DNA from: Oceanibaculum nanhaiense
Lineage (GTDB): Bacteria; Pseudomonadota; Alphaproteobacteria; Oceanibaculales; Oceanibaculaceae
Direction of reading: 5' to 3'
Assembly (NCBI RefSeq): GCF_002148795.1
Contig: NZ_MPOB01000007.1
Location: 62,001 to 126,000 of the forward strand
DNA length: 64,000 nucleotides
Shown: one piece after another, positions 40,518 through 42,185 of the stretch
Position numbering within the stretch: position 1 is the first letter of the stretch
How the letters are laid out: the number at the start of each line of letters is the position of its first letter
Made by a program: the position numbers and the translations under genes
Notes under the pieces: generated by a model
The model's database searches: none
Told to the model about the DNA's origin: nothing
What the model saw: the letters and a program-made list of their open reading frames with translations, nothing else

Positions 40518-40546
40518 TTGACCCGGCAGCGAGGGGCGGGTAGGAC
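40518..40546 (+). promoter_or_regulatory. Promoter of the MATE leader
   Basis: TTGACC (40518-40523) and TAGGAC (40541-40546) are spaced by exactly 17 bases. The expected start site is at about 40552-40554, only two to four bases before the ATG of the leader ORF at 40556, so the leader would be almost leaderless, as reported for rhizobial trpL. Confidence 0.65.
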
Positions 40547-40555
40547 AGGATCATT

Positions 40556-40648
40556 ATGGCAAAGCGCACCTTCATCAGGCTTGTGACCGTCCCGTTCTCG
40601 GCAGTCAAAGAGGACTCCCGGGACGAGTCCGCCCGCCGCGCGCCATAA
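40556..40648 (+). CDS. 30-codon leader ORF before the MATE pump
   Basis: This short frame encodes 30 residues, beginning MAKRTFIRLV and ending SARRAP, with ATG at 40556 and TAA at 40646. It lies immediately downstream of a 17-base-spaced promoter; AGGA also precedes the ATG by five bases. Its last codons overlap an RNA segment that can pair with the terminator upstream of the efflux gene. There is no run of a single amino acid, so any stalling signal would be drug- or sequence-dependent rather than amino-acid starvation. That it is translated is inferred from this arrangement. Confidence 0.6.
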   Translation: MAKRTFIRLVTVPFSAVKEDSRDESARRAP

Positions 40649-40685
40649 TTCAACGCTGATATAAGAACAGCCGAGCGCGCCGGAC
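40612..40685 (+). promoter_or_regulatory. Mutually exclusive pause and antiterminator hairpins
   Basis: Segment 1 GGACTC (40612-40617) pairs with segment 2 GAGTCC (40625-40630). Segment 2 can alternatively use GTCCG (40627-40631) and GCGCGC (40638-40643) to pair with segment 3 GCGCGC-CGGAC (40675-40685), 11 base pairs with one bulge. Segment 3 in turn is the left arm of the terminator. This is the 1:2, 2:3, 3:4 layout of classical ribosome-mediated attenuators. Confidence 0.6.
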
Positions 40686-40706
40686 CCTGACGAAGGCGCG
40701 CTTTTT
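40674..40706 (+). terminator. Intrinsic terminator in the MATE leader
   Basis: AGCGCGCC (40674-40681) pairs perfectly with GGCGCGCT (40695-40702) around a 13-base loop, followed by TTTTT and CTT. It lies between the leader ORF and the MATE start codon, 73 bases upstream of the latter, so the pump is expressed only when it is bypassed. Confidence 0.85.
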
Positions 40707-40778
40707 CTTAATCGCCAGGCTTCTTGCCTCCAAAATCCAGCGCCCTCGTCTTCCGGCCCCTCGGCGGAGGAACAAGAG

Positions 40779-42185
40779 ATGTCCGTCGCTGCCAGTCTGC
40801 TGAGAGACACGCGTCCGCCCGCCGAAAGCGGCCGGCCCAACTGGGACGAAACCCGCGCCACCCTGAAACTGGCGCTGCCGCTGATTCTGGCGCAGCTCGC
40901 CCAGATGGCGATCAACACAACCGATGTTGTGATGACCGGCTGGCTGGGGCCGGAGATGCTGGCCGCCGGCACGCTGGCGACCAACTATATGTTTCCGCTG
41001 TTCTTCCTGGGCATGGGGATTCTGGCGGCGGTTGCGCCGCTGATCTCGCAGGCGCTGGGGGCGCGGCAGTTCCGCAATGTCCGGCGCAGCGTGCGCCAGG
41101 GCTTCTGGGCCGGTGCCGCGCTGTCCGTGCCCTATTTCTTCCTGCTGCTGTTCTCGGCGCCGATCATGGCGCTGCTGGGTCAGAAGCCGGAGGCGGTGGC
41201 CGAGGCGGAACGCTATCTGCATGTATCGATGATCGCCATTCCCTTCGTGCTGTGGCTGATTCCGCTGCGCATCCTGCTGGCCTCGCACGGCAAGGCGCAT
41301 CTGGTGCTCATCAGCTCCACCACCGGCTTCTTCCTGAACATTCTCGGCAATTACACCTTCATGTTCGGCAATTTCGGCTTTCCGAGGCTGGAGCTGGTGG
41401 GGGCGGCGATCAGCTCCGTGCTGGTGAACGTCGCCATGTTCTCGGTCCTGCTGGCCTATTGCCTGACGAACCGGCGGCTGCGGCGCTATCGCATCCTGGC
41501 GCGTTGGTGGCGGCCGGACTGGCCGCGCTTTGCCACCATTTTCCGCATCGGCGTGCCCAGCGGCCTGACCAACCTGGCGGAGGTCGGGCTGTTCTCGGCG
41601 GCCAGCTTCCTGATCGGCGCGATCAGCATCCAGGCGCTGGCGGCGCACGCCATCGCCCTGCAATGCGCGGCGCTCAGCTTCATGGTGCCCTATGGGCTGT
41701 CGCAGGCGACGACGATCCGTGTCGGGCTGGCGGCAGGGGCGGAGAACCGGCCCGGCGTGCGCCGTGCCGGGGTGATCTCGCTGTCGCTGGGGCTGGGCTA
41801 TGCGGTCGCTGCGGCGCTGGGCCTCTGGCTGGCGGGCGACTTCATCGCCGGGCTGTTCCTCGATCATCACGATCCGAAAAATCTGCCGGTCATCGAGATC
41901 GCGGTGCGGCTGCTGCTGATCGCCGCCTGGTTCCAGCTGTTCGACGCCACCCAGACCATCGCGCTGGGGGCGTTGCGCGGTCTGCGCGATACCGCCGTGC
42001 CGATGGCCTATGCGATTGCCGGCTATTGGGGGCTGGGCTTCACCGGCGCGGTGATCCTGGGCTACTGGGTCGAGATCGCGCCGGGCTGGGGCGGCGTCTA
42101 TGGCGTGTGGCTGGGTTTCGTCATCGGGCTTGCCAGCGTGGCGGTGGCGCTCATCCTGCGCTTTCTTGCCCGCACGCGGGTTTAG
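40779..42185 (+). CDS. MATE-family multidrug efflux pump
   Basis: This 468-residue inner-membrane exporter has twelve helices and the NorM-type MATE pattern: LKLALPLILAQLAQMAINTTDVVMTGWLG near the N-terminus and a repeated half with RIGVPSGLTNLAEVGLFSAASFLIG. Such pumps expel cationic drugs and dyes using Na+ or H+. GGAGG lies eight bases before the ATG. It is expressed behind a leader ORF and terminator, pointing to induction by translational stress. accA follows after 82 bases. Confidence 0.93.
   Translation: MSVAASLLRDTRPPAESGRPNWDETRATLKLALPLILAQLAQMAINTTDVVMTGWLGPEMLAAGTLATNYMFPLFFLGMGILAAVAPLISQALGARQFRNVRRSVRQGFWAGAALSVPYFFLLLFSAPIMALLGQKPEAVAEAERYLHVSMIAIPFVLWLIPLRILLASHGKAHLVLISSTTGFFLNILGNYTFMFGNFGFPRLELVGAAISSVLVNVAMFSVLLAYCLTNRRLRRYRILARWWRPDWPRFATIFRIGVPSGLTNLAEVGLFSAASFLIGAISIQALAAHAIALQCAALSFMVPYGLSQATTIRVGLAAGAENRPGVRRAGVISLSLGLGYAVAAALGLWLAGDFIAGLFLDHHDPKNLPVIEIAVRLLLIAAWFQLFDATQTIALGALRGLRDTAVPMAYAIAGYWGLGFTGAVILGYWVEIAPGWGGVYGVWLGFVIGLASVAVALILRFLARTRV

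Follow-up and report, generated by a model that had tools for sequence, protein, structure and literature searches.

A putative ribosome-responsive transcription attenuator in the leader of a MATE efflux pump gene of Oceanibaculum nanhaiense

Regulation of MexXY in Pseudomonas aeruginosa involves the PA5471.1-armZ leader, where full translation of the leader ORF reportedly leads to formation of a 3:4 terminator, and attenuation is relieved by ribosome-targeting drugs with efflux as the outcome (PMC13041342). The multidrug pump BmrCD of Bacillus subtilis, whose genes are preceded by the bmrB leader peptide, is reported to be under ribosome-mediated transcriptional attenuation (PMC4191407). In the alphaproteobacterium Sinorhizobium meliloti, the first nucleotides of the trpL mRNA are the start codon of the leader ORF, and a choice is made between terminator and antiterminator (PMC7298713), and attenuation at the duf1127 uORF of the same species requires translation of the uORF and is relieved by tetracycline (PMC12218461). 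Searches of open-access papers yielded no report of a leader attenuator for a MATE gene, in agreement with the first-pass annotation of the present DNA, which knew of none on an alphaproteobacterial MATE gene.

The DNA analysed here is a stretch of 64,000 nt from O. nanhaiense (henceforth called the window); all features given below lie on its forward strand. The pump gene at 40779–42185 encodes a NorM-like MATE efflux transporter of 468 aa, which scored 225.2 bits against the TIGR00797 (matE) model and was placed among the NorM/MATE multidrug transporters via the curated cut-off of this model (147.4); the score against the NorM family NF001214 was 324.5 bits and lies under the narrower equivalog cut-off of 449. 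Its start codon at 40779 is preceded by the Shine-Dalgarno sequence GGAGG (40766–40770). We consider it probable that the leader of this gene is a ribosome-mediated transcription attenuator, by which the pump is raised when translation falters. The case is built on the anatomy of the leader, on the fact that three species share it, and on a predicted fold that depends on ribosome position; actual termination, translation of the uORF, and the inducing signal are inferred.

The order was represented by four genomes of a single genus (G000, i.e., the genome of the window, G001, G002, and G003). The pump was found in three of the four and the leader in all three pump carriers, the pump proteins of G003 and G001 being 94% and 81% identical to that of the window, respectively. 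A DNA search of the four genomes returned no leader copies beyond these three. In G002, which is 91% complete, pump and leader were both absent at the thresholds used.

The promoter consists of a -35 box TTGACC (40518–40523), identical in the three species, and a -10 box TAGGAC (40541–40546; TACAGA in G001), whose position is kept in the relatives and whose match to the consensus is weak; the spacer is 17 nt long in all three. The ATG of a uORF follows nine nucleotides past the -10 box at 40556, so that a 5′UTR of about 2–5 nt is expected. This near-leaderless uORF of 30 codons (MAKRTFIRLVTVPFSAVKEDSRDESARRAP; 40556–40648) has the same start, frame, and length in G003 and the same start and frame in G001, where it comprises 33 codons; sequence comparison hence gives a uORF, start codon, and promoter distance that are conserved in three species. 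Downstream, a stem formed by 40673–40681 and 40695–40703 (segments 3 and 4; hairpin 40673–40703) contains eight Watson–Crick pairs and one G-U pair, closes a loop of 13 nt (40682–40694), and runs into UUUUUC, with the U-tract at 40702–40706. Its core stem is invariant in the three species, and it is predicted from the sequence to be an intrinsic terminator ahead of the pump gene. Against this function count the long loop and the interrupted U-tract of G001 (GCUUUU). Simple scans of the window called neither element, as the promoter reached 8 of 12 matches (threshold 9) and the hairpin loop exceeded the limit of 8 nt; taken singly both are weak, and they are credible because they are conserved in three species.

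The competing antiterminator is composed of two helices, i.e., segment 2a (GUCCG, 40627–40631) with 40681–40685 and segment 2b (GCGCGC, 40638–40643), located at the last codons of the uORF, with 40675–40680. Both segments are invariant in the three species. A small hairpin GCUG/CAGC (40655–40671; 40655–40658 with 40668–40671) is predicted within the antiterminator in all three, with a differing loop. In the fold model, formation of the antiterminator would exclude the terminator, and its 5′ arm would be covered by a ribosome at the end of the ORF. Promoter, 30-codon ORF, terminator, and 2:3 pairing were thus found where the first-pass annotation had put them; the 1:2 hairpin it had added (40612–40617 with 40625–40630) exists in the window, and its sequence is not retained in the other two species.

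The following course of events is proposed. Transcription would start a few nucleotides ahead of the mini-ORF, so a ribosome could load on the 5′ end immediately. Under normal translation, it would proceed through the final seven codons to the stop codon and cover segment 2 (40627–40643), which would leave segment 3 free for pairing with segment 4 and lead to release of the polymerase near 40706, at the U-tract. With a slow ribosome, a ribosome stalled within the initial two thirds of the uORF, or no translation at all, segment 2 would pair with segment 3, the terminator would be blocked, and the pump would be transcribed. Faltering translation, caused by, e.g., ribosome-targeting drugs, would hence raise the pump. 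Such drugs are the natural guess at the signal of a NorM-like pump, and a shortage of charged tRNA would be the main alternative.

Conservation was compared across the three species of the one genus. Between G000 and G001, 40 of 41 bases paired in the antiterminator or terminator are identical in the 3′ half of the leader, vs 24 of 42 unpaired bases (p = 9e-6). The fourfold degenerate sites of the pump gene are 72.6% identical between the same genomes, and the chance of such conservation of the 41 bases at this rate (0.726) is about 2e-6. Within the terminator loop, the 5′ half (GGACCC), which contributes some of its bases to the antiterminator, is kept and the 3′ half has diverged. The retention of the paired bases and of this half of the loop is as predicted by a switch between 2:3 and 3:4 pairing. 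Within the uORF, codons 1–8 are identical to G000 at 23/24 nt in G003 and 18/24 nt in G001, codons 9–22 are hypervariable (24/42 and 17/42 nt), and codons 23–30 are again conserved (23/24 and 20/24 nt). The middle part diverges beyond the fourfold sites of the pump gene (p = 8e-5 and 8e-6), with most of its changes being non-synonymous, whereas the changes at K3 (AAG/AAA) and R8 (AGG/CGG) in the conserved first part are synonymous. As an observation aside, each version of this fast-diverging stretch (40580–40618; p = 8e-5) can form some local hairpin, predicted to be a different one in each of the three species. The ORF and the hairpins were therefore recovered in every pump-bearing genome of the genus, as the first-pass annotation had proposed to check; the covariation it had also proposed to look for was not observed, because the antiterminator helices are invariant across the three species. 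This invariance, and a base of three species from one genus compared by sequence and fold prediction only, count against the attenuator. It is nevertheless the conservation, rather than the fold model, that carries the argument for the predicted switch.

For the fold model, the ribosome was assumed to keep the RNA from pairing as far as 14 nt from where the A-site codon starts, and the probability of the terminator was computed for each ribosome position. The model describes the equilibrium only and takes no account of transcription speed or of RNA that the ribosome has already passed. With the ribosome between codon 24 and the stop codon, the modelled terminator probability was 0.92–1.0 in all three species. 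Before codon 24, it was mostly 0.03–0.4 in G000, about 0.0–0.9 in G003, and 0.02–1.0 in G001, i.e., many early ribosome positions in the latter two still permit the terminator. In ribosome-free RNA, the terminator was predicted to be absent in G000 and G003 and present in G001. The mixed early positions and the predicted termination of untranslated RNA in G001, unlike in G000, speak against the attenuator reading. Accordingly, the earlier claim that an early stall gives read-through and full translation gives termination is borne out clearly in the window species and less clearly in the other two; a stalled ribosome is moreover not needed in the window species, where read-through is predicted for the leader without translation as well. 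Since absent translation suffices there, the predicted behaviour departs from the trp-type scheme of four segments, and a classical attenuator of this type was rejected on the grounds that the 1:2 protector is unconserved and that untranslated RNA is predicted to terminate in G001 only.

Shuffling of the sequence before segment 3 produced an equally large switch in 10 of 300 cases for G000, 58 of 300 for G003, and 19 of 300 for G001 (p = 0.033, 0.19, and 0.063, respectively). The switch is hence modestly unusual and not rare in GC-rich leaders, which, taken by itself, weakens the attenuator reading; the result of the fold model is supportive, short of proof. The minimum free energy of the leader had a z-score of -3.1, with 1 of 200 shuffles being equally stable. 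Codons 4–8 are predicted to pair at long range with arm 4 and the loop of the terminator (14, 13, and 12 of 16 pairs); this pairing is not claimed, because the changes between species both preserve and disrupt it.

A different signal could be read by the same switch. The leader might respond to a shortage of charged tRNA by stalling of the ribosome at the Arg codons, with the MATE protein exporting a metabolite rather than drugs. In favour of this, R4 and R8 of the uORF are common to all three species, with the synonymous change AGG/CGG, and the switch logic would be identical. We regard this as rather unlikely, given that the uORF lacks the consecutive copies of a single rare codon typical of classical leaders, that five Arg in 30 codons are unremarkable at this GC content in our judgement (not a computed value), and that the pump falls in the multidrug MATE/NorM group. 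A leader peptide of the type controlling amino-acid biosynthesis was rejected, since the three peptides (MAKRTFIRLVTV..., MAKRTFIRIEAV..., and MDKRITIRLQAL...) are without a run of codons for a sensed amino acid.

The gene upstream of the leader in G000 and G003 is one which we take to encode a MOSC domain (the domain name is our own assignment, and an NCBIfam profile search of this gene gave no match), and the gene at this place in G001 is, in our own reading of the ORF, a class I lysyl-tRNA synthetase. The terminator is kept with the pump when the neighbour changes in G001, and it therefore belongs to the pump and not to the end of the upstream gene; the assignment of the leader to the MATE gene in the first-pass annotation thus held up. 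This makes it improbable that the hairpin simply terminates the upstream gene or a small RNA and that the ORF is a product of chance, in which case expression of the pump would rely on read-through or on another promoter. No promoter-like site was found in a scan of the stretch between terminator and pump, and the invariance of segment 2 inside an ORF whose preceding codons are hypervariable is at odds with this explanation as well. In its favour are the frequency of switch-like folding in shuffled sequences and the size of the terminated RNA (150 nt), which could serve as an sRNA like rnTrpL (PMC7298713).

Additional control could act on translation or via Rho. A block CCGGC...CUCGGCGGAGG (40753–40770), which includes the Shine-Dalgarno sequence of the pump, is conserved in the three species and complementary to segment 3 (GCCGAG/CUCGGC), and an alternative 3:5 pairing between the two is predicted beside the Shine-Dalgarno sequence. 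The block may, on the basis of this predicted pairing, provide an extra translational layer. Dominance of such control, or of Rho acting on the leader, with the hairpin being secondary, would be in line with this conserved complementarity and with the existence of a uORF attenuator in Alphaproteobacteria for which Rho dependence has been proposed (PMC12218461). We nonetheless deem it quite unlikely, because the U-tract follows a GC-rich stem and the accessibility of the Shine-Dalgarno sequence hardly changed with the modelled ribosome position; for the latter reason, masking of the Shine-Dalgarno sequence as a second layer was dropped. A further reading takes the 30-aa peptide as the actual product, e.g., a small protein with a membrane or regulatory role whose synthesis begins at the 5′ end. 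It would explain the conserved start, frame, and ends of the uORF and is highly improbable, as codons 9–22 outpace the fourfold sites of the pump with mostly non-synonymous changes and the peptide is conserved at its C-terminus just where the RNA segment lies.

Beyond the genus, no counterpart of the leader was recovered. No Rfam match above the gathering score was present in the window, nor anything meaningful at a relaxed threshold. A covariance model of the core, searched against 385 alphaproteobacterial genomes, gave the three true matches and no credible copy outside the genus; the best outside match (9.7e-6 in G167) was rejected because of its position within a long coding frame, and those other outside matches that were inspected were rejected because their setting is not leader-like. 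Most other alphaproteobacterial MATE genes sampled are without a comparable leader. The upstream regions of approximately 110 MATE loci contained about nine near-leaderless short ORFs vs about four expected in shuffles, and single cases therefore carry little weight.

In a second alphaproteobacterial family, f35, most of the sampled MATE loci start with a mini-ORF a few nucleotides past a -10-like box. At eight of them (L018, L147–L150, L153, L156, and L157), an ORF of six codons occupies the same place, about 180–270 nt upstream of the pump; the peptides are MITRTH, MITRIH, MLLRAA, MFIGIV, MLTQTA, MLQHTA, MLKRTI, and MIRRIA, with varying stop codons. For seven of these eight, a helix between the ORF and a segment further downstream is predicted, enclosing two hairpins, and cognate pairing beats non-cognate pairing (71 of 5040 permutations were as good). 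A ribosome on the mini-ORF would disrupt this helix. Complementary downstream segments are also present for the mini-ORFs of L160 and L161 (MQKGISRMMRT and MQTGMVHMLRT), and a third kind of mini-ORF (FHRMQSxPGIAGR-like) occurs at L158, L159, and L162–L164. An intrinsic terminator is not evident in the f35 leaders, and they have no sequence in common with the window leader, so any likeness between them is one of logic. It is quite possible, if a little short of probable, that near-leaderless mini-ORFs sensing translation arose repeatedly on alphaproteobacterial MATE genes via unrelated RNA folds.

Other arrangements were seen at single loci or in small groups. Four MATE genes of Rhizobiaceae (L065, L074, L085, and L088) carry a promoter-like site TTGC-17-TA in the last 100 nt, followed immediately by a GC-rich hairpin with a T-run 10–20 nt before the Shine-Dalgarno sequence of the gene; these hairpins are possibly a different attenuator. 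At L058, a near-leaderless ORF (MRTRVIYLQQRS) with TTGAAA-17-TATATA lies 206 nt upstream of the pump match, and ACGCGCGT, which is repeated downstream, could pair with the ORF.

If the attenuator reading is true, a MATE pump would be controlled directly by ribosome activity in a Gram-negative lineage for which such leaders have hitherto been described mainly for amino-acid genes, and the locus would offer a compact and testable case of a resistance-type gene behind a near-leaderless uORF attenuator. Taken with the f35 leaders, it would suggest that some alphaproteobacterial lineages may commonly couple MATE pumps to translation sensing, which has stayed hidden because ORFs of six to thirty codons are rarely annotated.

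Among the described systems, PA5471.1-armZ shares the Gram-negative background and the switch logic with the window leader (leader sequences aside) but controls the gene of an anti-repressor and not the pump itself, the pump being of the RND and not the MATE type. The bmrCD system has in common a multidrug pump under ribosome-mediated attenuation and differs in being Gram-positive and in its ABC pump. The trpL leader is alphaproteobacterial, has its ORF at the start of the mRNA, and chooses between terminator and antiterminator; its Trp codons serve to sense tryptophan and its target is trpE(G), whereas the window leader has no repeated sensor codon and would control a pump. The duf1127 leader is an alphaproteobacterial uORF attenuator too, but with a proposed Rho-type mechanism, a uORF led by a Shine-Dalgarno sequence, and another gene downstream, in contrast to the predicted intrinsic terminator of the window leader. 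The switch logic is already known from PA5471.1-armZ, bmrCD, and the amino-acid leaders; for its putative use on a MATE gene, the open-access papers searched gave no precedent.
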